From the NCBI RefSeq assembly GCF_021389935.1, contig NZ_CP089979.1:1965001-2029000 (forward strand): a stretch of 64,000 bases of DNA, read 5' to 3'. Source of the stretch: Fulvivirga ligni (lineage in GTDB: Bacteria; Bacteroidota; Bacteroidia; Cytophagales; Cyclobacteriaceae). This document shows, in pieces, positions 50,768 through 64,000 of this stretch. Position numbers and translations under genes: made by a program. Under the pieces are notes generated by a model. The model searched no databases. It was not told the origin of the DNA and saw only the letters and a program-made list of their open reading frames with translations. Each line of letters starts with the position of its first letter. Within the stretch, counting starts at the first letter, position 1.

Positions 50768-52333
50768 TCACCCTTCCTTCTCCTCCCTCAAAATAGCATC
50801 AGCCTTAGCTCTAATCACCTTACCCACAGGCTTCTTCTGAATCTTGCTCTCAAGCCACTCGATAATATCAAAATAGATAAAAGCACGCTTTTCGTATGGG
50901 TTTTTCTTTAATGGTATAAGCTGGTTTCTTAGTTTTTCGAATTCAGGTATCAACTCATCTTCCGTGATCTGATAACTTAGTTTTTTCAGGAAGTTGAGAA
51001 TGTACTTCTGGAAATTATGTAAATCGTCTTTCTTTAGTAAAAAGCGATAAGTAGAGCGGATGTAATAGTCAATTACATCTACGTTGCCGAGCTCATAATG
51101 ACTGATCAGGTTAAGGATTCTGGCGAAGGAGTGGATGTCTTCTCTGATGTCTACATTTTCTGAATTCAATATTCTGTTTAGCCAGAAGATAGCCTCATGA
51201 TAATCGCCATTTCCAAAATACAGGCAAGACATTTTATAGTACATAATCAGTTTGGAATGGTTGTCTATCTGGTTGATAAACTGCTCTAAACCTGGCTTGA
51301 TTTTGTTCATAAGAGCTACTCCAATTTCAAAATCGCCAAGCATAAAAAAGCGATTGAATTCATGTACGTAGGTGTATTTTAGCAGGCGCAGTTGAATATT
51401 CTCATTCATTACATTTCTAGGAAAATGCCTGATCTCCCTCAGCTGCCTGCTGGTCTGTACGAATTCATAATATTTATAAAGCTTGTACTGAGCTATTAAA
51501 AGGTTGTTAATAGCCCGGATGTAGGATTCCAGCTTTGATACTTTAATTTGCTTATACTGCTCAAAAAGATTGACCCATTTGCGTGCATACTTGTATCCGT
51601 TTTCAAAATCCTGAATAAAGAAATAATACCCCACATATAAATTGTAGAGATTTAGTTTTTCATCAAGGGATAGCTTTTGCTCTTCATATACAGGTAGGCT
51701 GGCTTTAAACATGCCAGTGATTCTGTCGTAATCACTTTCATTTCTGATGAAACCTATCTTCATGTAAGAGGCATTTAGCTTGGCCGCCAGGTTGGTGAAA
51801 ATATTTATGTTGTTAATGCGATTATTGCAGTCCTGAACCTCTTCTATAATTTTATTTACACGCACCTGATTTCCAGGTCCTACTGTCTGGTTAAGGACGT
51901 TCTTTTCCCATTTTAATATTTCCAGCTGTAGCTCTAGATTACCAATTTTCTGAGCCTGCTTTTTCGCTTTCTTTAAAACGCTGGCGCACTGATCATACAG
52001 GCTTCGATTAAAGAGAATCTGGGCATAATCGATCATTTCCCTGATCTGTATGTCTATTACTGATCCTTGATTGTACTGCCTTATGCATTGTAAGATTTTT
52101 TTGTATAAATGAGATTTTAAGTTGGAAAGCTGGGTAGGATTTAATGATGAATCTTTTCTTAAAATATCATTTTCATTAAAGTGTGTTTGCGCGTCAATAA
52201 GCTCGAATAACCTTACATACTTTCTGCTCGCACTATCGCTTTCTGCATTTACAGATACCTTGAAATATCGTTTTTCACTTTTTTTAAGTGATTTTATTAA
52301 TAAAAATAAAGCGTCTGATTTCTCCTTAGGCAT
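50768..52333 (-). CDS. Conserved helical (TPR-like) protein of unknown function
   Basis: I do not recognise a named family for this 521-residue protein. It is cytosolic (no signal peptide), starts MPKEKSDALFLLIKSLKKSE and is predicted to be a chain of helices with TPR-like periodicity (for example YDQCASVLKKAKKQAQKIGN), often with aromatic residues at repeat ends. It converges on dnaN and diverges from leuA. Confidence 0.75.
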   Translation of the reverse strand: MPKEKSDALFLLIKSLKKSEKRYFKVSVNAESDSASRKYVRLFELIDAQTHFNENDILRKDSSLNPTQLSNLKSHLYKKILQCIRQYNQGSVIDIQIREMIDYAQILFNRSLYDQCASVLKKAKKQAQKIGNLELQLEILKWEKNVLNQTVGPGNQVRVNKIIEEVQDCNNRINNINIFTNLAAKLNASYMKIGFIRNESDYDRITGMFKASLPVYEEQKLSLDEKLNLYNLYVGYYFFIQDFENGYKYARKWVNLFEQYKQIKVSKLESYIRAINNLLIAQYKLYKYYEFVQTSRQLREIRHFPRNVMNENIQLRLLKYTYVHEFNRFFMLGDFEIGVALMNKIKPGLEQFINQIDNHSKLIMYYKMSCLYFGNGDYHEAIFWLNRILNSENVDIREDIHSFARILNLISHYELGNVDVIDYYIRSTYRFLLKKDDLHNFQKYILNFLKKLSYQITEDELIPEFEKLRNQLIPLKKNPYEKRAFIYFDIIEWLESKIQKKPVGKVIRAKADAILREEKEG

Positions 52334-52456
52334 CGTATTTATAGATATTAAAATATATGCCTAAATATAGTAATTAGCGGATTATGTTGAAAATATTACC
52401 ATTTAGAAATTGTATTTAATCCCTTTTTAGGTAGCTCGTAAGCTTTGCTGGTCTGT

Positions 52457-52464
52457 TACATTTG
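52457..52464 (+). promoter_or_regulatory. Possible -7 element of the leu-ilv operon
   Basis: TACATTTG matches TAnnTTTG exactly and ends 31 bases before the leuA ATG. No TTTG occurs at the expected -33 place. No T-box or leader peptide was visible in the 160 bases upstream of leuA. Confidence 0.35.
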
Positions 52465-52495
52465 ATGTCAATATTTGAAACGAGACCATTTTATT

Positions 52496-53662
52496 ATGAA
52501 TAACAGAATCCAAATTTTTGATACTACCTTGAGGGATGGCGAGCAGGTGCCAGGTTGTGGCTTATCTAAAAACGAAAAAATAACCATAGCAAGAGCACTC
52601 GAAGAACTGGGAGTAGATGTAATAGAAGCTGGATTTCCTATATCAAGCCCTGGAGATTTTCAATCTGTAGTGGCTGTTTCAAAAGAAATTAAAAACGCAA
52701 CAGTTTGTGCTCTTTCAAGAGCCATAGAGAAAGATATAGATGCTGCCGCTGAGGCTGTAAAACATGCTGCAAGACCTAGAATACATACAGGTATTGGTAC
52801 TTCAGATCAGCACGTTTTTACTAAAATCAGAACTACACGAGAGGATATTTTAGTGAGAGCCGAAAGATGCGTGAAATATGCAAAGAAATTTGTTGAAGAT
52901 GTAGAATTCTATGCTGAAGATGCCGGAAGAACAGATAATGAGTTTTTAGCTCAGGTCATCCAAGTGGCAGTGAATGCCGGTGCAACTGTGGTAAATATTC
53001 CTGATACTACAGGATATTGCTTGCCAGAAGAATACGGTAAAAAAATCAAATTCCTTTGCGATAATGTAATTGGAATAGAGCATGTTACCATCTCAACTCA
53101 TTGTCATAATGATCTTGGCTTGTCTACAGCAAACAGTATAGAGGCCATTAAAAATGGTGCTCGTCAGGTAGAGTGTACCATTAACGGTATCGGAGAGAGA
53201 GCCGGAAATACTTCTTTAGAGGAAGTGGTAATGATTCTTAAAAAGCATAACTGGTTAAACTATGACACTGGTATAGATTCTACTAAAATATACCCAATCA
53301 GCCAGTTAGTGTCTTCTACCATGAATATGCCTGTGCAGCCTAATAAGGCTATTGTAGGAAGCAATGCTTTCGCTCACTCGTCAGGTATTCACCAGGATGG
53401 TGTAATCAAAAACAGAGATAACTATGAGATCATTGCTCCTGAAGAAGTAGGGGTAGATGAGTCTTCAATTATATTAACAGCACGTAGCGGAAGAGCTGCA
53501 TTGAACTTCAGAGTTGGGAAATTAGGAGTACAGTTGAGTAAAGATGAATTGGAAAATGTATACTCAAGATTCCTGGAAGTGGCAGATAGAGTAAGTGTGG
53601 TGAATGATGCAGAACTTAAAAATTTGGTGAGCCAGTATTTGATCACCAATACAAACTTTTAA
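52496..53662 (+). CDS. leuA: 2-isopropylmalate synthase (short form without the regulatory domain)
   Basis: LeuA condenses acetyl-CoA with 2-oxoisovalerate as the first step to leucine. I start at the ATG at 52496 ([20 protein letters not shown]); a TTG at 52475 would add seven unlikely residues. The 388 residues contain the DTTLRDGEQ motif, the [10 protein letters not shown] metal-binding stretch, [16 protein letters not shown] and [10 protein letters not shown]. The protein stops after the catalytic region, while E. coli LeuA (about 520 residues) continues with a C-terminal leucine-sensing domain. Context (leuC-leuD-leuB directly follow) makes LeuA far likelier than homocitrate or citramalate synthase. 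Confidence 0.92.
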
Positions 53663-53676
53663 TTTTTAAAAATCAA

Positions 53677-55071
53677 ATGAGTAAAACGCTTTTTGATAAG
53701 ATTTGGGATAAGCATGTGGTTCAGGAAATAAAAGATGGACCACAAGTTTTATATATAGACCGTCATTTTATACATGAGGTAACTAGTCCGCAGGCTTTTG
53801 CGGGACTTAAAAATAGAGGCATTGGAGTTTTCAGACCAGACCAAACCGTGGCTACTGCTGATCATAACGTGCCTACCAAAGACCAGCATCTTCCTATAAA
53901 AGATCAGCTTTCAAGGCATCAGGTTGATACACTGGTTCAAAACTGTAAAGATTTTGGTGTTGAGCTATATGGCTTGGGCCATCCATTTCAGGGAATTGTG
54001 CACGTAATAGGGCCAGAGTTGGGTATTACTCAGCCGGGCATGACTATAGTTTGTGGTGATAGCCATACATCTACACACGGGGCCTTTGGAAATATCGCTT
54101 TCGGTATTGGCACCAGTGAGGTAGAGCAGGTGTTTGCTACTCAGTGTATCCTTCAGAAGAAACCTAAAACCATGAAGATTCAGGTGGATGGTCAGCTTAG
54201 AAAAGGAGTTACTTCAAAAGATATTGTTCTGTACATCATCTCTCAAATCACTACTGGAGGAGGAACAGGATATTTTATTGAGTTCTGTGGTACTGCCATT
54301 GAATCACTTTCTATGGAGGCTAGAATGACCATTTGCAATATGAGTATTGAGATGGGGGCCCGTGGTGGAATGATCGCTCCAGATGAAATCACTTTTTCAT
54401 ATCTGAAAGGCAAAAAGTTTGCTCCGGAAGGAGAAGAATGGGATAAGAAATTAGCCTATTGGAAGACCCTAAAGACTGATGCTGACGCCACATTTGATAA
54501 GGAGTATGTTTTTAAGGCTGAAGACATAGAACCGATGATCACTTATGGTACTAATCCTGGAATGGGCATTGGTATTACCCAGAGCATACCTGGAGGAAAC
54601 GGGCAGATGGATGCCGGGTTGAAAAAATCACTTGAGTACATGGACCTAAAAGGAGGTTCTCAGCTTTTGGGTAAAAGGATCGATTATGTATTTATTGGAA
54701 GCTGTACTAACTCCAGAATCGAAGATTTGAGATTAGTTGCTAATCTGGTAAAAGGGAAAAGAAAAGCTGAACATGTAAATGCTATGATCATCCCTGGCTC
54801 TAAGCAGGTGGAGGATCAGGCTAAGGCAGAAGGTATAGATAAAATTTTGGCAGAGGCGGGCTTCGAGCTGCGTCAACCAGGATGCTCAGCATGTTTGGGT
54901 ATGAATGAAGATAAGGTGCCAAGAGGAAAATATTGTGTTTCTACCTCTAACAGAAACTTTGAAGGCAGACAAGGACCGGGTGCCAGAACTATGTTGGCTA
55001 GTCCTTTAACAGCGGCAGCTGCGGCTTTGAATGGCTATATCACTGATGTTAGAGAAATGATAGAAGACTAA
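53677..55071 (+). CDS. leuC: 3-isopropylmalate dehydratase large subunit
   Basis: Converts 2- to 3-isopropylmalate together with LeuD. The 464 residues show the aconitase fold with iron-sulfur cysteines in [13 protein letters not shown] and [26 protein letters not shown] and the C-terminal [20 protein letters not shown]. It lies 14 bp after leuA and 7 bp before leuD. Confidence 0.97.
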
Positions 55072-55078
55072 AATTGAG

Positions 55079-55672
55079 ATGGATAAATTCGATACATTAA
55101 TATCAACATGCGTTCCTGTTCCCTTTCAGGATATAGATACTGACCAGATTATTCCGGCCAGATTTTTAAAGGCTACCACCAGAGAAGGATTTGGAGATAA
55201 TCTGTTCTGTGACTGGAGGTATGATGACCAGGGTAATCCTAATGCTGACTTTGTGTTAAACAAGGATACTTATACTGGAAAAATATTAGTAGGTGGTAGA
55301 AACTTTGGCTGTGGATCTAGTAGAGAGCATGCTGCCTGGGCCATCTATGATTATGGGTTTAAAGTGGTGATTAGCAGCTTCTTTGCTGACATATTTAAAA
55401 ATAATGCGCTTAACAATGGTCTTTTGCCAGTGCAGGTGTCTGATAGCTTTTTAGAGAAGCTTTTTAGCGCCATAGAAGATGATCCTGAGGCGGAGGTGAA
55501 AGTAGACCTTGATGAGCAAACTGTGAGCCTTTTGGGCTCTAATCTAAGCGAGAAATTTGAGATCAATCCTTATAAGAAGCATTGTCTTAAAAACGGCTTT
55601 GATGACATAGATTTTCTGCTGAGCAGTCTTGATAAAGTGGAGGCTTACGAGGCGGAAAATACAATAAAGTAA
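55079..55672 (+). CDS. leuD: 3-isopropylmalate dehydratase small subunit
   Basis: The swivel domain partner of LeuC. The 197 residues carry the motifs [14 protein letters not shown] and [18 protein letters not shown], and the usual length of about 200. Confidence 0.97.
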
Positions 55673-55687
55673 TGATGGGTGAAACAT

Positions 55688-55731
55688 GCCCCTCGTAGAG
55701 ATATGGTTTAGGTTGACCTTTCTACGGGGGC
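55688..55731 (+). other. Long hairpin between leuD and leuB
   Basis: GCCCC(T)CGTAGA at 55688-55699 pairs with TCTACGGGGGC at 55721-55731 in an 11-bp stem with one bulged T; a short GGT/ACC helix can form in the loop. No strong T-run follows, so it is more likely an mRNA-processing or stability element than a terminator. Confidence 0.6.
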
Positions 55732-55756
55732 TGTTTCTATTATAGCAAATATAACA

Positions 55757-56833
55757 ATGAAGAAAAATATCGCAATATTGCCTGGAGATGGTATAGGGCC
55801 GGAAGTAACAAAACAGGCTTTAAAAGCATTACAATCTATAGAAGAAAGTTTCGGACATGAGTTTACCTATAAAGAAGCTCTTGTAGGTGCGGCAGCCATA
55901 GATGCTACTGGCAACCCTTTTCCTGAAGAAACTGAAAATACATGCCGTGAGGCAGATGCTATCTTGTTTGGGGCTATCGGTGACCCTAAATATGATAATG
56001 ACCCTAAAGCAAAAGTGAGACCTGAGCAAGGTCTGTTAGCCATGAGAAAGAAATTAAATCTCTTTGCTAACGTGAGGCCAGTGAAAAGTTATGATGCTTT
56101 GTTATCAAAATCACCATTAAAAGAGAGCATTATTCAGGGTACTGATTTTGTTGTATTCAGAGAGCTTACCGGAGGTATTTATTTCGGCCAGCCCAGAGGT
56201 AGATCGGAGGATGGAAGTAGCGCTTTTGATACCTGTAACTACAGCAAAGAAGAAATAACCCGAATAGCTAAGTTGGCTTTTGAGGCCGCTGGAAATAGGA
56301 GTAAGAGATTGACACTGGTAGACAAAGCCAATGTATTAGCCACTTCGCGCTTGTGGAGAGAAACCGTGCAGGAGATGGCTGCAGATTACCCTGACATAGA
56401 ACTAGACTATATGTTTGTGGATAACGCAGCTATGAAGATTATTCAAAATCCAAAAGGATTTGATGTAGTACTAACTGAGAACATGTTTGGTGACATTATC
56501 ACAGATGAGGCTTCGGTAATAGCTGGCTCATTAGGTATGTTGCCATCAGCTTCAATAGGAACAGAACAAAGTTTGTTCGAACCCATTCACGGATCGTTTC
56601 CTCAGGCTGCAGGAAAGAATTTGGCTAACCCTTTCGGCGCCATTCTTTCGGCAGCCATGCTGCTGGAGTATTCCTTTGGCCTGGTAGAGGAAAGTAAAGC
56701 AATACAAGAAGCTGTTTTAAAAGCTGTAGAAGAAGGATTTGTTACTGAAGATATTAACAGCGATAATCCTAAAACTACAGAAGAGGTAGGAGACAAGGTT
56801 GCTGCCTACATCAAGGAGGCATTAGCAGTTTAA
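55757..56833 (+). CDS. leuB: 3-isopropylmalate dehydrogenase
   Basis: Oxidatively decarboxylates 3-isopropylmalate to 2-oxoisocaproate with NAD. The 358 residues contain LPGDGIGPEVTKQALKAL, RELTGGIYFGQPRG, the catalytic Lys/Asp region VDKANVLATSRLWRE, and FGDIITDEASVIAGSLGMLP with EPIHGSFPQAAGK. It follows the leuD hairpin by 25 bp and is the last leu gene. Confidence 0.97.
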   Translation: MKKNIAILPGDGIGPEVTKQALKALQSIEESFGHEFTYKEALVGAAAIDATGNPFPEETENTCREADAILFGAIGDPKYDNDPKAKVRPEQGLLAMRKKLNLFANVRPVKSYDALLSKSPLKESIIQGTDFVVFRELTGGIYFGQPRGRSEDGSSAFDTCNYSKEEITRIAKLAFEAAGNRSKRLTLVDKANVLATSRLWRETVQEMAADYPDIELDYMFVDNAAMKIIQNPKGFDVVLTENMFGDIITDEASVIAGSLGMLPSASIGTEQSLFEPIHGSFPQAAGKNLANPFGAILSAAMLLEYSFGLVEESKAIQEAVLKAVEEGFVTEDINSDNPKTTEEVGDKVAAYIKEALAV

Positions 56834-56891
56834 GAATAGTTATTATGGAAAAAAACATGCCACAGCGTTGTTATTTCAAAAACTATTTGGT

Positions 56892-56899
56892 TAGCTTTA
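56892..56899 (+). promoter_or_regulatory. Possible internal promoter before the ilv attenuator
   Basis: TAGCTTTA is one base off TAnnTTTG, with a TTG at 56868-56870 21 bases upstream. A start near 56905 would put the leader-peptide ATG close to the 5' end. Read-through from leuB is an equally good source of transcripts. Confidence 0.25.
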
Positions 56900-56914
56900 A
56901 ATCAAAGAACAAGA

Positions 56915-56992
56915 ATGAAAAGTCTAAGCATCAATATTATTTCCCTGATTATTATTAACGTCATCGTGGTGACTTCCACGAGGGATTGGTGA
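56915..56992 (+). CDS. Branched-chain amino acid leader peptide (attenuator peptide)
   Basis: This 25-residue open frame starts MKSLSINIISLIIINVIV and ends VTSTRDW. Twelve residues are Ile, Leu or Val, clustered at positions 4-19 (seven Ile, two Leu, three Val), the composition of ilv-type control peptides. The stop codon (56990-56992) lies directly after the antiterminator segment GGATTGG (56983-56989), so a ribosome that reaches the stop covers that segment, while one stalled at the Ile/Val codons leaves it free. It sits 24 bp before a strong terminator and upstream of ilvE. The peptide itself probably has no function beyond regulation. Confidence 0.88.
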   Translation: MKSLSINIISLIIINVIVVTSTRDW

Positions 56993-57047
56993 TGCTTTGT
57001 ATATAAAATAATACTAAGCGCCAATCCTCAGGGTTGGCGCTTTTTTT
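56965..57047 (+). promoter_or_regulatory. ilv transcription attenuator (antiterminator and terminator arms)
   Basis: Terminator: AGCGCCAATCC (57017-57027), loop TCA, then GGGTTGGCGCT (57031-57041), 11 bp with one G-T pair, followed by seven T. Antiterminator: GGATTGG (56983-56989) is the exact complement of CCAATCC (57021-57027) and can be extended by GAG/CTC with one bulged G. Pause hairpin: CGTGG (56965-56969) with CCACG (56976-56980). A further 8-bp match joins AAGCATCA (56926-56933) with TGATGCTT (56990-56997). These are the mutually exclusive structures needed for translation-coupled attenuation. Confidence 0.85.
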
Positions 57048-57072
57048 ATGTCAAAAAATTAAATGTATAGCC

Positions 57073-57963
57073 ATGTATTACAACAATGAGACCACTGTAT
57101 TTCAAAATGGCAAATGGTTAAAGGCCAAAGATGCCAAAGCCAGCATGTACAATCAAACATTGCACTATGGTATTGGAGTGTTTGAAGGAATAAGATCGTA
57201 TAAAAATGTGAATGGCTGCAATATATTCAGAGCCAAAGAACATTATGACAGGCTCCTGTATTCTGCAGAAAAAATGCATATAGAGGTGCCTTATACTGTA
57301 GAAGAATTAGTAGGTATTACTTATCAGCTGCTTGATAAGAATAACCTTAGTGACGCATATATCAGGCCATTGGTTTATCAGGGTATGAACATGGCGCTAA
57401 CACCAGCTTCTGAAACAAATGTTTTCATAGGAGCCTGGGAATGGGCTAAATATCTGGGTAATGAACCTTTAAATGTAATGATTTCATCATACCAAAGGCC
57501 AAATCCTAAGTCTTGCGTGATGGAAGCGAAAGTAGTGGGTCATTATACTAACTCGGTATTGGCTACTACAGAGGCTAGAAAGCTGGGCTATGACGAGGCT
57601 CTTTTATTAGACATACATGGTTATGTAGCTCAGGGGCCAGGCGCTAATTTCTTCTATGAGAAAGATGGTGTTTTATATACTCCACCGGCAGGAAATATTC
57701 TTCCGGGAATTACCAGAGCAACCATCATGGAGTTGGCTAAAGAATTAGAAATCAGAGTGATAGAGAGTCATTTTACTGTAGATGAGGTATATGATGCAGA
57801 CTATGCTTTCTTCGCCGGTACCGCCGTGGAAATAACCCCGATCGGTGCTATAAACGGCGAGAAATTTAAGGCCAATTGGGAGGAATCTGCTGGTCATAGC
57901 ATATATCAGATGTATCGCACTAAAGTGCAACACAACGAATATCAAGGACTTACAATCGTATAA
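57073..57963 (+). CDS. ilvE: Branched-chain amino acid aminotransferase
   Basis: Transfers the amino group from glutamate to the Ile, Leu and Val keto acids with PLP. I start at the ATG at 57073 ([20 protein letters not shown]); an upstream TTG at 57034 lies within the terminator hairpin. The 296 residues contain [14 protein letters not shown], the PLP lysine region [40 protein letters not shown] and [14 protein letters not shown], all fold-type IV marks. It is the first gene after the attenuator. Confidence 0.96.
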
Positions 57964-57971
57964 AATTTATA

Positions 57972-59651
57972 ATGTCAGAAATACTTAACAAATATAGCCG
58001 TACCGTAACTCAAGACCCTACGCAGCCAGCTGCACAAGCCATGCTGCACGCCATAGGTTTAACTGATGATGATCTTAAAAAACCACAAATCGGAATAGTG
58101 AGTACAGGTTATGAGGGCAACCCTTGTAACATGCACCTTAACGATTTGGCTAAGGTGGTGAAAGAAAGCACTAACGAGCAGGATCTTGTAGGACTTATCT
58201 TCAACACTATTGGTGTAAGTGATGGTATCTCTATGGGGACTCCAGGAATGAGATATAGCTTACCTTCTCGTGATGTAATTGCTGATTCAGTAGAGGTAGT
58301 AGTAAATGCGCAGTCATACGATGGTGTAGTTACCGTGGTTGGTTGTGATAAGAATATGCCGGGAGCTATGATTGCCCTGGGTAGATTAAACAGGCCGGCT
58401 ATTTTGGTATATGGAGGTACAATTGCTCCAGGATGCTATAAAGATAAAAAACTAGATGTAGTAAGTGCTTTTGAAGCTTTAGGTCAGAAAATAGCAGGTT
58501 CTATTTCTGAGGAAGACTTCAGTGGTGTAGTTCATAATGCTTGCCCAGGTGCTGGTGCTTGTGGAGGTATGTATACTGCGAATACCATTGCATCGGCCAT
58601 TGAAGTTTTAGGCTTGAGCTTGCCTTATGGTTCTTCAAACCCTGCTGTGAGCGGTGAAAAAGGTGAAGAATGTAAGAGAGTAGGTGAGGCCATGAAGTTG
58701 CTTATTGAAAAAGACCTTAAGCCAAGAGATATTGTTACAAAAGCATCATTTGAAAATGCTGTGAAGCTGATCACCGTTCTTGGTGGTTCTACTAATGCAG
58801 TGCTTCATTTATTGGCAATGGCCAAAGCATTTGATATTGATTTTGATATCAACGACTTCCAAAGAATAGGTAATGAAACGCCATTCCTGGCAGACCTTAA
58901 GCCAAGCGGTAAATACCTAATGGAAGACCTGCACATCAACGGCGGTGTGCCTGCAGTAATGAAACTTATGCTGGATGAAGGCCTGCTAGATGGTAGCTGT
59001 ATGACAGTGACTGGCAAAACAATAGCAGAAAACTTAGCTGATTTACCAGGATTAAAAGAAGGACAGGATATTATTCGTCCGGTATCAAACCCTATTAAAT
59101 CATCAGGTCATATTAGAATCTTGAGGGGAAACTTAGCTCCTGATGGAGGTGTAGCTAAGATCACCGGAAAAGAGGGTGAAGTATTTGAAGGGCCAGCCCA
59201 CATTTTTGATAGTGAGTATGACGCTAATGATGGTATCAGAAATGGCGAAGTGAAAGCTGGAGAAGTAGTAGTTATTCGCTATGAAGGACCAAAAGGTGGC
59301 CCAGGTATGCCTGAAATGCTTAAGCCTACCGCTGCCATTATGGGCGCAGGTTTAGGAAATTCAGTGGCCCTGATTACAGATGGTCGTTTTTCTGGAGGTA
59401 CTCATGGTTTTGTGGTGGGGCATATTACTCCTGAAGCACAAGACGGCGGTGCCATCGCATTGATTGAGAATGGTGATATTATAAAAATAGATGCTACCAA
59501 AGACACTATTGAGGTGATGGTAGATGAGGCCGAAATGAAGGCCAGAAAAGATAAATGGGTTGCTCCACCATTGAAAAAAACATCAGGAGTACTGTATAAA
59601 TATGCAAAAAGTGTTTCATCCGCATCCCAAGGGTGCATAACAGATCTTTAA
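57972..59651 (+). CDS. ilvD: Dihydroxy-acid dehydratase
   Basis: Dehydrates 2,3-dihydroxy acids to the keto acids of Val and Ile with an iron-sulfur cluster. The 559 residues show [56 protein letters not shown] and the C-terminal [19 protein letters not shown]. It begins 8 bp after ilvE and ends 2 bp before ilvB. Confidence 0.97.
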
Positions 59652-59653
59652 TT

Positions 59654-61384
59654 ATGGATACATTGACCAAAACAGTTGGTGAAAAACAAATTGAAAAGCA
59701 AAGTATGGCCGGTTCTGAGGCGGTCATCAGATCGTTGCTAGCCGAGGGTGTCGAGACTGTCTTTGGTTACCCGGGCGGTGCTATAATGCCGGTCTATGAT
59801 TCACTTTGGCATTTTCAGGAAGAGCTTAAGCACATCCTTACCAGACATGAGCAAGGGGCTATTCATGCCGCTCAGGGTATGGCTAGAGTTACCAACAAGC
59901 CTGGGGTAGTTTTCGCTACATCAGGTCCTGGAGCTACTAACCTGATCACTGGTTTGGCAGATGCTAAGATTGATAGTACGCCGTTGGTATGTATTACCGG
60001 TCAGGTAGCTTCACCATTATTGGGAACTGATGCTTTTCAGGAAACAGATATCATCAGTATATCTATGCCAGTAACCAAATGGAATACGCAAGTAACTAAG
60101 GCTGAGGATATTCCAAGTGCCATTGCCAAGGCGTTTTATATTGCTACTTCGGGTAGGCCAGGTCCTGTATTAATAGATATAACCAAAGATGCTCAATTTG
60201 CATCTCTTGATTTCTCTTATAAAAAATGTAACGGCTTCAGAAGCTACGTACCTAAGCCTGCCTTAGATCATGATGAGGTAGAAAAAGCGGCAAGACTGAT
60301 TGATTCAGCTAAAAAGCCATTCATACTTTTCGGTCAGGGTATAATACTTTCAGAAGCGGAGAATGAGCTAAAGGCTTTCGTAGAAAAAACAGGTATACCT
60401 GCGGCATGGACTGTCTTAGGACTTTCAGCAATGCCTACTGACCATCCTTTAAATGTAGGAATGCTGGGTATGCATGGAAACTATGCTCCCAATAAACTTA
60501 CCAATGAATGCGATGTGCTCATTGCTGTAGGTATGAGATTCGATGATCGTGTTACCGGCGATCTAAGTCGCTATGCTAAGCAAGCGAAAGTGGTTCATTT
60601 GGAAATAGATCCGGCCGAAATAGATAAAAATGTAAAGACAGATATAGCCATTCTGGGTGATGCTAAAGAATCATTGCAGTTGCTCACTTCGCTATGTAGT
60701 GAGAACAATCATGATGATTGGGTACAGAAATTTCATGATCTGAAAGCCATTGAATATGATCAGGTCATACAGAAAGAGCTAAATCCTGATAAGCCTGGCC
60801 TAACTATGGGCGAGGTAATAAGAAGAGTAAACGGGCTCACAGATAGCGAAGCTGTGGTAGTAACTGATGTAGGTCAGCACCAGATGGTGGCCTGTAGGTA
60901 TGCTACCTTCAAACAAACTAAAAGCAACGTTACTTCTGGAGGTTTGGGAACTATGGGCTTCTGTTTGCCGGCAGCCTTGGGGGCTAAATTGGGAGCTCCT
61001 GAAAGAGCAGTAGTAGCGGTAATAGGAGATGGTGGTTTTCAGATGACCTTGCAGGAATTAGGCACTATATTCCAGACTAATGCGGCGGTGAAGATTATTA
61101 TTCTAAACAATAACTTCCTGGGCATGGTGCGCCAATGGCAGCAGCTTTTCTTTGATAAGCGCTATTCATCTACAGAGCTGGTAAACCCTGATTTTGTGAC
61201 TATCTCTAAAGGTTTTGGAATAGAGGCTAGCTCAGTAAGTGAAAGACAGTATTTGGATGCTGCATTAAAAACCATGATGGATCATGATGGTCCTTATCTA
61301 CTAGAGGTAATGGTGGAAAAAGAGGATAACGTATTCCCAATGGTTCCTACCGGAGCTTCAGTAGAAGATGTAAGATTATCATAA
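59654..61384 (+). CDS. ilvB: Acetolactate synthase large (catalytic) subunit
   Basis: Condenses pyruvate with pyruvate or 2-oxobutyrate with TPP, FAD and Mg2+. The start is the ATG at 59654 (MDTLTKTVGEKQIEK); an earlier ATG lies within ilvD. Motifs: VFGYPGGAIMPVYDSL, the catalytic Glu in LTRHEQGAIHAAQG, FQETDIISISMPVTKWN, and the TPP motif GDGGFQMTLQELGTIFQTNA with ILNNNFLGMVRQWQ. Of 576 residues, close to the usual length. It pairs with ilvN, 18 bp downstream. Confidence 0.97.
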   Translation: MDTLTKTVGEKQIEKQSMAGSEAVIRSLLAEGVETVFGYPGGAIMPVYDSLWHFQEELKHILTRHEQGAIHAAQGMARVTNKPGVVFATSGPGATNLITGLADAKIDSTPLVCITGQVASPLLGTDAFQETDIISISMPVTKWNTQVTKAEDIPSAIAKAFYIATSGRPGPVLIDITKDAQFASLDFSYKKCNGFRSYVPKPALDHDEVEKAARLIDSAKKPFILFGQGIILSEAENELKAFVEKTGIPAAWTVLGLSAMPTDHPLNVGMLGMHGNYAPNKLTNECDVLIAVGMRFDDRVTGDLSRYAKQAKVVHLEIDPAEIDKNVKTDIAILGDAKESLQLLTSLCSENNHDDWVQKFHDLKAIEYDQVIQKELNPDKPGLTMGEVIRRVNGLTDSEAVVVTDVGQHQMVACRYATFKQTKSNVTSGGLGTMGFCLPAALGAKLGAPERAVVAVIGDGGFQMTLQELGTIFQTNAAVKIIILNNNFLGMVRQWQQLFFDKRYSSTELVNPDFVTISKGFGIEASSVSERQYLDAALKTMMDHDGPYLLEVMVEKEDNVFPMVPTGASVEDVRLS

Positions 61385-61402
61385 TCTAAAAAGAAGAAGA
61401 TC

Positions 61403-61954
61403 ATGAAAGAGACATTCACCATAGTAGTATTTACTGAGAACAAAATCGGTTTGCTAAACCGTATTTCGGCTCAGTTTACTCAGAGACATATAAATATAGA
61501 AAGCTTAACTGCTTCAGAATCAGAATACCCTGGTATTCATAGGTTTACAATTGTAATCAATGAAGATGAAGAGAAGACCAGAAAGGTAGTCAAACAAATA
61601 GAAAAGCAGGTGGAGGTATTAAAAGCTTATTGCTTTAAAGATTCTGAAACCGTGCATAGTGAAATTGCTTTGTACAAAATTAAAATGGATCCGAGCCTTG
61701 ATAGGCCAAAATTGGATAATGTGCTCATTACCCACGGAGCTTTTGTGCAAGAGCAGGTTGGCAGCTTTATGATCATCGCTAAAACCGGCACCAAAGAAGA
61801 GACACATCAACTCTTTGAGGATTTGTATCCATTTGGTTTACAGGGTTTTGTGAGATCAGGAAGAGTCTCCCTTTCTAACACCATGAGTACATTTAAAACA
61901 TATTTACAAGCTTTAGAAACACATTCTAAAGAAATAATAACAGACAACTTTTAA
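61403..61954 (+). CDS. ilvN: Acetolactate synthase small (regulatory) subunit
   Basis: The regulatory subunit that gives valine feedback inhibition and full activity. The 183 residues start with an ACT domain (FTIVVFTENKIGLLNRISAQ, then RHINIESLTASES) and have the C-terminal domain with EEKTRKVVKQIEKQVEVLKA. It lies between ilvB and ilvC in the conserved order. Confidence 0.95.
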   Translation: MKETFTIVVFTENKIGLLNRISAQFTQRHINIESLTASESEYPGIHRFTIVINEDEEKTRKVVKQIEKQVEVLKAYCFKDSETVHSEIALYKIKMDPSLDRPKLDNVLITHGAFVQEQVGSFMIIAKTGTKEETHQLFEDLYPFGLQGFVRSGRVSLSNTMSTFKTYLQALETHSKEIITDNF

Positions 61955-61979
61955 AAAGAATAACTAATTCAACAAAACA

Positions 61980-63026
61980 ATGGCAAAAATTAACTTTGGC
62001 GGAGTAACAGAAGATGTAGTAACAAGAGAGGAATTTCCTCTAGATAAAGCTCAGGATACATTAAAAGACGAAACTATTGCTATTATCGGTTATGGTGTGC
62101 AGGGCCCAGGTCAGGCGTTAAACCTAAGAGATAATGGCTTCAATGTAATCATTGGGCAAAGAAAAGAATCTAAAACATGGGATAAAGCCGTTTCTGACGG
62201 ATGGGTGCCTGGTGAAACTCTTTTCGAAATTGAGGAAGCTTGCCAAAAAGGAACTATCATTCAGTATCTGTTATCTGATGCCGGCCAGATTAGTTTGTGG
62301 CCTACTGTGAAAAAGAATTTAACTGCTGGTAAAGCACTTTATTTCTCTCATGGTTTTGGTATTACTTATAAAGAGAGAACAGGCATTGTTCCTCCATCAG
62401 ATGTAGATGTAATTTTAGTAGCGCCTAAAGGATCAGGTACTTCACTAAGAAGAATGTTCCTTGAGGGTAGAGGTTTGAACTCTAGCTACGCTATTTTCCA
62501 GGATGCTACCGGAAAAGCTAAAGACAGAGTAGTGGCTTTAGGTATTGGTGTAGGATCAGGATATCTTTTCGAAACTGACTTCAAAAAAGAGGTTTACAGT
62601 GACCTTACTGGTGAGCGTGGTACACTTATGGGTGCTATCCAGGGTATCTTTGCTGCTCAGTATGAAGTGCTTAGAGCTAATGGACACTCTCCATCTGAGG
62701 CTTTCAACGAAACAGTGGAAGAGTTAACTCAATCACTTATGCCGCTGGTAGCTGAAAACGGAATGGACTGGATGTATGCTAACTGTTCTACTACAGCTCA
62801 GAGAGGTGCATTAGACTGGTGGAAAAAATTCCGTGATGCTTCTAAGCCTGTATTTGAAGAGCTTTACAGCGAAGTGGCTGCAGGAAATGAGGCACAGCGC
62901 TCAATAGATAGTAACAGTAAGTCTGACTACCGTGAGAAACTCGAAGTAGAGCTGAAAGAGCTTAGAGAGTCTGAAATGTGGCAGGCAGGAAAAGAAGTAA
63001 GAAAGCTAAGACCTGAAAACGGTTAA
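61980..63026 (+). CDS. ilvC: Ketol-acid reductoisomerase
   Basis: Isomerises and reduces acetohydroxy acids with NAD(P)H and Mg2+. The 348 residues hold the Rossmann motif GYGVQGPGQALNLRDNG with GQRKESKTW as the cofactor-phosphate loop, SHGFGITY, and the metal-binding DLTGERGTLMGAIQGIFAAQ. The Arg-Lys/Ser-Lys loop favours NADPH. It follows ilvN by 25 bp. Confidence 0.96.
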   Translation: MAKINFGGVTEDVVTREEFPLDKAQDTLKDETIAIIGYGVQGPGQALNLRDNGFNVIIGQRKESKTWDKAVSDGWVPGETLFEIEEACQKGTIIQYLLSDAGQISLWPTVKKNLTAGKALYFSHGFGITYKERTGIVPPSDVDVILVAPKGSGTSLRRMFLEGRGLNSSYAIFQDATGKAKDRVVALGIGVGSGYLFETDFKKEVYSDLTGERGTLMGAIQGIFAAQYEVLRANGHSPSEAFNETVEELTQSLMPLVAENGMDWMYANCSTTAQRGALDWWKKFRDASKPVFEELYSEVAAGNEAQRSIDSNSKSDYREKLEVELKELRESEMWQAGKEVRKLRPENG

Positions 63027-63044
63027 TTAATTACAATAATTTAT

Positions 63045-63075
63045 CAGGCAGTCAAATTTTGGCTGCCTGTTTTTA
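63045..63075 (+). terminator. Terminator-like hairpin between ilvC and ilvA
   Basis: CAGGCAGTCAA (63045-63055), a three-base loop and TTGGCTGCCTG (63059-63069) form an 11-bp stem (one G-T pair) followed by TTTTTA. The 66-bp gap to ilvA then suggests partial termination. TTATCAG (63041-63047) and CTGATAA (63077-63083) offer a competing 7-bp pairing. Confidence 0.65.
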
Positions 63076-63092
63076 TCTGATAAAAGGAGATT

Positions 63093-64000
63093 ATGAAGTC
63101 TGAAGTGAACAAAGCAAAAATATCGATAGATAACATATTAGCAGCTGCCGAGAACCTTAAAGGTGTAGCTATTCGCACCCCATTAATGCCAAATCCAATT
63201 CTTTCTGAAAGATTTGGAGCTAATATTTTGCTTAAAAGAGAAGACCTTCAGGTAGTAAGATCTTATAAAATTCGTGGAGCTTATAACAAGATTCAAAGTC
63301 TTGCTCCAGAACAGCTAACTAACGGAGTAGCCTGCGCAAGTGCAGGAAATCATGCTCAGGGAGTAGCTTTTGCATGTGCTAAAAAACAGATTCAGGGCAC
63401 CATATTTATGCCTGCACCTACACCTAGTCAAAAGGTGAATCAGGTGAAAATGTTCGGTAAAGAATTTGTAAAAGTGGTGCTCACCGGAGATACCTATGAT
63501 GATGCTTTTCATGAAGCCACTAAATTCTGTGAAGAGAATGAAGTGATGTTTATACCTCCTTTTGATGACCCCAAAATCATAGAAGGACAGGCAACCGTAG
63601 GTAAAGAAATTATAGAAGATAGCTCAGATCCCATTGATTATCTGATACTTCCTATTGGTGGAGGAGGCCTAGCTGCAGGCTTAAGTAGCTATTTTAAAAC
63701 CCTTTCGCCCTCTACCAAAATAATAGGAGTAGAGCCAGAAGGAGCACCAGCTATGAAGGCTTCTCTCGAAAAAGGAGAGGTAGTGGTTCTCAGTAAAATA
63801 GATAAGTTCGTAGATGGAGCAGCGGTGAAAAAAGTAGGTGATCTTACTTTTGAAATCTGTCAGGAGCTGCTCGATGATGTAATTACCGTGCCTGAAGGTT
63901 TGGTTTGCGGTGAGATATTAAGACTTTACAACGAACAGGCCATTGTTGTGGAGCCTGCGGGAGCATTGGCCATCACTGCTCTTGAAAAACTAAAGGACCA
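63093..64000 (+). CDS. ilvA: Threonine dehydratase (3' end outside window)
   Basis: Deaminates threonine to 2-oxobutyrate for isoleucine synthesis using PLP. The visible 302 residues start MKSEVNKAKISIDNILAAAE and show the PLP lysine in RSYKIRGAYNK, the SAGNHAQGVAFACAKK stretch and the glycine-rich phosphate loop LPIGGGGLAAGLSS. The frame is open to the window edge. Whether an ACT-type regulatory domain follows cannot be seen. It is the last gene of the ilv operon in this window. Confidence 0.95.
   Translation, partial: MKSEVNKAKISIDNILAAAENLKGVAIRTPLMPNPILSERFGANILLKREDLQVVRSYKIRGAYNKIQSLAPEQLTNGVACASAGNHAQGVAFACAKKQIQGTIFMPAPTPSQKVNQVKMFGKEFVKVVLTGDTYDDAFHEATKFCEENEVMFIPPFDDPKIIEGQATVGKEIIEDSSDPIDYLILPIGGGGLAAGLSSYFKTLSPSTKIIGVEPEGAPAMKASLEKGEVVVLSKIDKFVDGAAVKKVGDLTFEICQELLDDVITVPEGLVCGEILRLYNEQAIVVEPAGALAITALEKLKD

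Follow-up and report, generated by a model that had tools for sequence, protein, structure and literature searches.

A probable ribosome-dependent transcription attenuator ahead of the ilv genes of Fulvivirga ligni and its counterparts across Bacteroidota

The ilvGMEDA operon of enterobacteria is preceded by an attenuator that combines a leader peptide (IlvL) rich in isoleucine, valine and leucine with alternative RNA arms and an intrinsic terminator. A comparable arrangement is described in the available text of two reports on Corynebacterium, a member of the Actinobacteria, where the ilvBNC leader (ilvB-II upstream frame) likewise has an Ile/Leu/Val-rich frame, a terminator and an antiterminator, and lies ahead of ilvB (PMC10272879, PMC11109978). 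Closer to the organism studied here, the available text on the Flavobacterium psychrophilum transcriptome presents strong clues for attenuation by short leader peptides ahead of amino-acid biosynthesis operons within the same phylum, although the term ‘ilv’ is absent from the main text of that paper (PMC9723704). Small frames resembling leader peptides are also mentioned in the accessible part of a study of Bacteroides thetaiotaomicron (PMC7366714). The attenuation mechanism itself is classical textbook material, and its use for ilv genes in Bacteroidota is little documented in the literature that we searched; no description of such an ilv attenuator was found there, in a search of incomplete coverage that mostly excluded subscription journals.

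We analysed a stretch of 64,000 nucleotides (the window) from the 6.5 Mb, single-contig genome of Fulvivirga ligni. Its genes are arranged in the order leuA, leuC, leuD, leuB, leader, ilvE, ilvD, ilvB, ilvN, ilvC and ilvA, with ilvA truncated by the end of the window. NCBIfam gives all ten genes these names: nine exceed the cut-off of at least one model of the same name, and the truncated ilvA does likewise. Between the stop codon of leuB (56831-56833) and the start of ilvE (57073) lie the leader frame and a terminator, and the following features can be assigned to this region.

56915..56992, + strand: leader peptide frame MKSLSINIISLIIINVIVVTSTRDW, stop codon TGA included; read from the sequence and conserved in the genus and across Bacteroidota
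56926..56933, + strand: arm 1, AAGCATCA, within leader codons 4-7; its partner in the free-RNA fold is 56990-56997
56982..56997, + strand: arm 2, GGGATTGGTGATGCTT, across the leader stop codon; its partner is arm 1 or arm 3
57016..57028, + strand: arm 3, AAGCGCCAATCCT, shared by the terminator (as 5′ arm) and the antiterminator (as 3′ arm); from the terminator scan, folding and duplex comparison
57031..57042, + strand: arm 4, 3′ arm of the terminator; from the terminator scan and the genus alignment
57041..57047, + strand: T run of the intrinsic terminator and expected end of the short transcript; from the sequence and the terminator scan
57073..57963, + strand: ilvE, the first gene past the attenuator; NCBIfam
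57972..63026, + strand: ilvD, ilvB, ilvN and ilvC; NCBIfam

On the evidence of sequence comparison and folding, this region very probably works as a classical ribosome-mediated transcription attenuator, with the supply of charged isoleucine, valine and leucine tRNAs as its signal. Like the enterobacterial attenuator it precedes ilv genes that include ilvE and ilvD, whereas the phylum and the gene order are different; the likeness is one of design and not of compared sequences. Attenuation of the E. coli style for branched-chain amino acids would then be widespread among Bacteroidota, whose promoters are unusual and in which translation starts without Shine-Dalgarno sequences, according to the available text of one study (PMC9723704). 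Because attenuation works only if a ribosome closely follows RNA polymerase, the locus also offers a test bed for the coupling of transcription and translation in this phylum. Moreover, it points to an RNA family that has no match in Rfam release 15, and to small genes that readily escape notice.

The leader frame runs from an ATG at 56915 to a TGA at 56990-56992 and is rich in codons for the products of the pathway, with isoleucine, leucine or valine at 12 of its 25 codons (4, 6, 8, 9, 11-14 and 16-19). Gaps within this frame in the genus alignment are of three or six bases. After 23 nt comes an intrinsic terminator (57016-57047), placed between the leader and the first structural gene, whose stem at 57016-57042 has 12 base pairs (seven of them GC) and a three-base loop and is followed by the T run. 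This stem has the most pairs among 14 terminator-like sites in positions 52000-64000, where the shuffle mean is 7.7. The sequence GGATTGG at 56983-56989, the last base of which adjoins the TGA, is exactly complementary to CCAATCC at 57021-57027 in the 5′ arm of the terminator. The original prediction had named a 25-codon frame with 12 such residues ahead of a strong terminator, as well as this complementarity, and our examination of the sequence reproduced the coordinates and composition of the former and the positions of the latter.

The leader RNA folds better than its shuffled versions (z -4.69, 0/200), and the fold of the free RNA consists of arm 1 paired with arm 2 and arm 3 paired with arm 4. 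Thus, arm 1, which lies within the coding frame, keeps arm 2 sequestered in the absence of a ribosome, a role borne out by the cross-species test and the genus count given below. The effect of a ribosome was modelled by folding only the RNA ahead of it, with an assumed footprint of 12 nt downstream of the A-site codon, or 10 nt for a ribosome at the stop codon, and with stalls at ten codons (5, 8, 9, 12, 13, 14, 16, 17, 18 and 19). In these models a stalled ribosome would leave arm 2 free, whereas one at the stop codon would cover it. With stalls at the nine tested codons from 5 to 18, arm 2 is predicted to be free and to pair with arm 3 before arm 4 exists, the free stretch having -18.6 to -27.5 kcal/mol with an antiterminator share of -18.6 kcal/mol. 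Late stalls leave arm 1 behind the ribosome and outside the folded stretch. A ribosome at the stop codon allows the terminator alone to form (-19.3 kcal/mol). Stalling had originally been placed at codons 4-19; the tested codons 5-18 agree with this range, whereas with the assumed footprint a stall at codon 19 already hides two bases at the 5′ end of arm 2 and shortens the antiterminator helix to -14.2 kcal/mol. The antiterminator formed by arms 2 and 3 excludes the terminator, as had been claimed, and the pairing on which this exclusion depends is confirmed both by folding and by comparison among species. Once arm 4 is present the terminator wins at nine of the ten stall positions, so the switch must be kinetic and be decided during transcription, as in the classical model.

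We envisage that RNA polymerase would start just 5′ of the leader or come in from the leu genes. If isoleucine, valine and leucine are plentiful, the ribosome would reach the stop codon and cover arm 2, arms 3 and 4 would form the terminator, and the transcript would end near 57047. Under shortage of a branched-chain amino acid, the ribosome would instead stall in codons 5-18, over arm 1 or between arms 1 and 2; arm 2 could then engage arm 3 ahead of the synthesis of arm 4, and transcription would continue through ilvEDBNC. Should the leader not be translated, arm 1 would pair with arm 2 and the terminator would form.

The same organization recurs well beyond F. ligni. A set of 140 loci provided 137 regions upstream of ilvE, of which 125 were left after removal of nine duplicates and three regions under 200 nt. 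All 125 entered the shuffled set, and 123 were usable once L011, which has no upstream sequence, and L012 had been left out. Leaders were recognized as frames of 10-45 codons that carry at least eight isoleucine, leucine or valine codons in some 14-codon stretch and lie at most 110 nt from a terminator. By this definition a leader with terminator is present in 96 of the 123 regions and in only one of 375 dinucleotide-shuffled versions of the 125, so the occurrence of such frames at terminators is not due to chance. Leaders were found in 56 of 76 named records (80 minus two duplicates and two that were too short), including representatives of Roseivirga, Chryseolinea, Pontibacter, Chitinophaga, Niastella, Pedobacter, Tenacibaculum, Flavobacterium and Chryseobacterium, and in 40 of the 49 remaining genomes, a number that includes L011 and L012. 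The Fulvivirga locus L012 has a leader too, outside the 123-region count; its ilvE gene is broken by a stop codon and a frame change, which reflects either a sequencing error or a pseudogene (genome G005).

In 89 of the 96 loci the leader stop codon lies 17-35 nt ahead of the terminator. At least two of the 96 (L059 and L103) look like false matches, and 27 of the 123 regions have no leader by this definition. Among the Sphingobacterium-like loci L104-L106, L108 and L109 none qualifies, with four scoring weakly and one not at all. Five loci (L015, L017, L018, L019 and L021) have two terminator-like hairpins ahead of ilvE, one by the leader and the other elsewhere upstream. Leaders also occur ahead of ilvD. 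Strong IlvD matches are present in 62 of 148 genomes of the phylum sample, and the same definition finds a leader in 19 of the 30 ilvD loci listed, the window among them, a count made without a shuffle control. In one family (f41, whose kinship to Fulvivirga is given as same phylum only, in a different class) 12 of 13 ilvD loci are preceded by a leader and the thirteenth scores 7. Ten of the 30 scanned ilvD loci have no leader, and one scores 7.

Complementarity of the arms was assessed by comparing the duplex energy of each arm with its own partner to that with partners from all other loci (96 loci, 5000 permutations). Arm 2 pairs better with its own arm 3 (-15.1 kcal/mol) than with swapped ones (-10.5 kcal/mol), a result equalled by none of the 5000 permutations. 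The pairing of arm 1 with arm 2 behaves similarly (own -13.8, swapped -12.3 kcal/mol; 0/5000). Control pairings of arm 1 with arm 3 (2641/5000) and arm 2 with arm 4 (616/5000) give no signal among the 96 loci. Arm 1 with arm 4 is weakly non-null (96/5000, same loci) and is not a clean control, because a signal may arise when arms 1 and 3 both match arm 2. Dereplication to 68 loci leaves both true pairings at 0/5000, with the 1:3 and 2:4 controls at 2764 and 1212. Individual loci illustrate how the arms change together: in L078 and L090 the codons at the peptide end (GGAGG..) match ..CCTCC of their own terminators, and in L020, L048 and L053 peptide ends of GGGGCG.. match CGCCCC of the terminator. 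Arm pairing is poor in a few loci, for example L015, L021, L023, L059 and L135.

Within the genus, the terminator is 95% paired in an alignment of ten sequences and its covariation score exceeds those of 500 out of 500 shuffles. Arms 1 and 2 are 76.7% paired in this alignment (shuffles 74.0%; 66.7% if slid by -3), and the number of their cells changed on both sides was reached by none of 500 shuffles. The antiterminator in the register of the window is 73.8% paired, which five of 500 shuffles equal, and shows no excess covariation in the genus alignment (191/500 shuffles reach its score), since most species have this pairing shifted by one base. Column-wise counting of pairs is therefore uninformative for this helix, which is why the arms were judged by the energies of own and swapped duplexes. 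Overall, the conservation on which the original prediction was to be judged is present: the frame, its Ile/Val/Leu runs, the distance to the terminator and the complementarity of arms 2 and 3 persist both within the genus and across Bacteroidota although the letters differ, and the reading of the region as an attenuator is supported.

These comparisons bear directly on other ways to account for the region. A terminator past leuB would be ordinary, and the hairpin begins 182 nt after the leuB stop codon, so one might regard it as merely the end of the leu operon with an Ile-rich frame beside it by chance. However, only 32 of 93 checked leaders directly follow a leu gene of the same orientation, leaders stand ahead of ilvD in other genomes, and both the rarity of leaders among shuffles (1/375) and the covariation of the arms make such a coincidence barely credible. 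A ligand-binding riboswitch, a T-box or a protein-bound leader with an incidental short frame is very unlikely as well. Strong structure ahead of a biosynthetic operon would suit any of these, but what is kept across families is the residues of the frame, the terminator distance and the pairing, with no sequence core discernible by eye. Furthermore, the window contains no match to an Rfam family at its gathering score, and 16 relatives gave none at E 0.1; the known leader families all remain below threshold in the window, the best being trpB (RF04312; 34.2 of 59 bits), with Phe_leader at 15.1 of 55.

It is similarly improbable that the frame encodes a functional hydrophobic micropeptide and that the hairpins are incidental. 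The leader peptides are indeed hydrophobic, with a median length of 24 among leader loci, but I, L or V make up 93% of all A, F, M, C, W, I, L and V residues in their 14-residue cores, a share biased by the selection of these cores for I, L and V. Moreover, the end of the frame changes along with the terminator such that RNA pairing is preserved.

The relation of this attenuator to the leu genes depends on where transcription begins. The -7 box of Bacteroidota is given as TAnnTTTG in the available text of two studies (PMC7366714, PMC9723704), and candidates for promoter elements precede both the leader and leuA.

56868-56870, + strand: TTG, possible -33 element of the leader transcript; fits the pattern TTG-N17-22-TAnnTTTR
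56892..56899, + strand: TAGCTTTA, probable -7 element for the leader transcript, differing from TAnnTTTG by one letter; TAnnTTTA in the genus
52457..52464, + strand: TACATTTG, probable -7 element of leuACDB; TACWTTTG conserved in the genus

TAnnTTTA stands ahead of the leader in ten of ten Fulvivirga sequences, and the TTG is present in seven of the nine Fulvivirga leaders that belong to the set of 93. Across the wider collection, TAnnTTTG occurs no more than 70 nt 5′ of 26 of 92 leaders compared to a mean of 3.8 for mononucleotide shuffles, with control values of seven on the reverse strand and 5/89 in windows farther upstream. Half of the 28 TAnnTTTG starts within 100 nt (14) fall 25-29 nt 5′ of the leader start. 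The combined pattern TTG-N17-22-TAnnTTTR precedes 22 of 93 leaders (shuffle mean 1.1), and 12 of these 22 sites are among the 32 loci with a leu gene directly upstream. Likewise, a TACWTTTG promoter-like box is found in all nine aligned Fulvivirga regions upstream of leuA. No leader or terminator was seen between this box and leuA, by eye in nine Fulvivirga and by terminator scan in the window. Upstream of this box, at 52400-52440, sequences resembling TTTAGAAATTGTA and TTTTTAGG are partly conserved in the nine Fulvivirga and might constitute an operator.

The leader thus seems to have its own promoter. Because conserved promoter-like boxes precede both the leader and leuA, the leu and ilv genes probably form separate, adjacent units, and the attenuator stands right at the head of the ilv unit. 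The expectation that leuACDB escapes this control agrees with the presence of a box of its own without a leader. The cause originally given, the position of the attenuator inside one operon, does not hold as well, and only the ilv half would be attenuated because it appears to be a separate transcription unit with the leader promoter.

A second small frame overlaps the leader.

56845..56958, + strand: MEKNMPQRCYFKNYLVSFKSKNKNEKSKHQYYFPDYY, candidate small frame (ORF1) overlapping the leader in another frame; Fulvivirga only, with mixed coding evidence

ORF1 has 35-37 codons in eight of ten Fulvivirga, starts 70 nt 5′ of the leader start, just past leuB, and ends within the Ile run of the leader. 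It is open in nine of the ten, from a later ATG in L009, whereas L007 has a stop codon inside it. Codon-level similarity by column permutation is 4/1000 for the eight intact sequences and 44/1000 with L007 added. The variable columns number 13, 17 and 15 over the three codon positions, and since there is no excess at third positions and the synonymous count is ordinary (351/1000), strong protein-level selection is disfavoured. The probable promoter of the leader lies inside ORF1 and could explain part of its conservation. Outside the genus ORF1 was not found in 147 genomes of the family, strong matches being those to its own genome and to G006 of the same genus. Six further matches with E values of 0.002-0.01 were rejected, all of them partial and three with internal stop codons.

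It is conceivable, though we consider it unlikely, that ORF1 is read only on transcripts from the leu promoter and that a ribosome terminating on it blocks the leader start, such that leu-derived RNA bypasses or overrides the attenuator. Such transcripts would escape because the ribosome terminating ORF1 at the site of starvation stalling would keep the leader start blocked. If so, the ilv locus would have two promoters and two overlapping frames served by one terminator.

Downstream of the attenuator, ilvE followed by ilvD is the order in nearly all loci compared, and ilvC is followed by an ilvA in the same orientation in 46 of the 81 sources searched, window counted. A strong terminator-like hairpin occupies 63045-63069 between ilvC and ilvA, 23 nt 5′ of the ilvA start at 63093. 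Relief of termination had been proposed to carry transcription from ilvE through ilvA; our reading extends this to ilvEDBNC alone, since that hairpin stands before ilvA. No relatives of IlvE were found in viral contigs.

Two further leaders in the same genome resemble the ilv leader in that a run of the operon's own amino acid is followed by a terminator and then by hisG or trpE; they differ in their amino acids and operons, and the likeness is one of leader and terminator. The Trp leader MTTTFTYNAWWWHFSQKER, which may be longer with an earlier ATG, is followed by a strong terminator and a trpE homologue (L201, G000:C1:5353900-5354900, reverse strand) whose best matches are trpE models, below their cut-offs on the pieces tested. 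The His leader MNLSVNKYHHHHHHFNIDLMHGRYMF lies ahead of a terminator and hisG (L200, G000:C1:5145100-5146100, frame from position 182), and this hisG matches TIGR00070 with 203.7 bits against a cut-off of 75.75.
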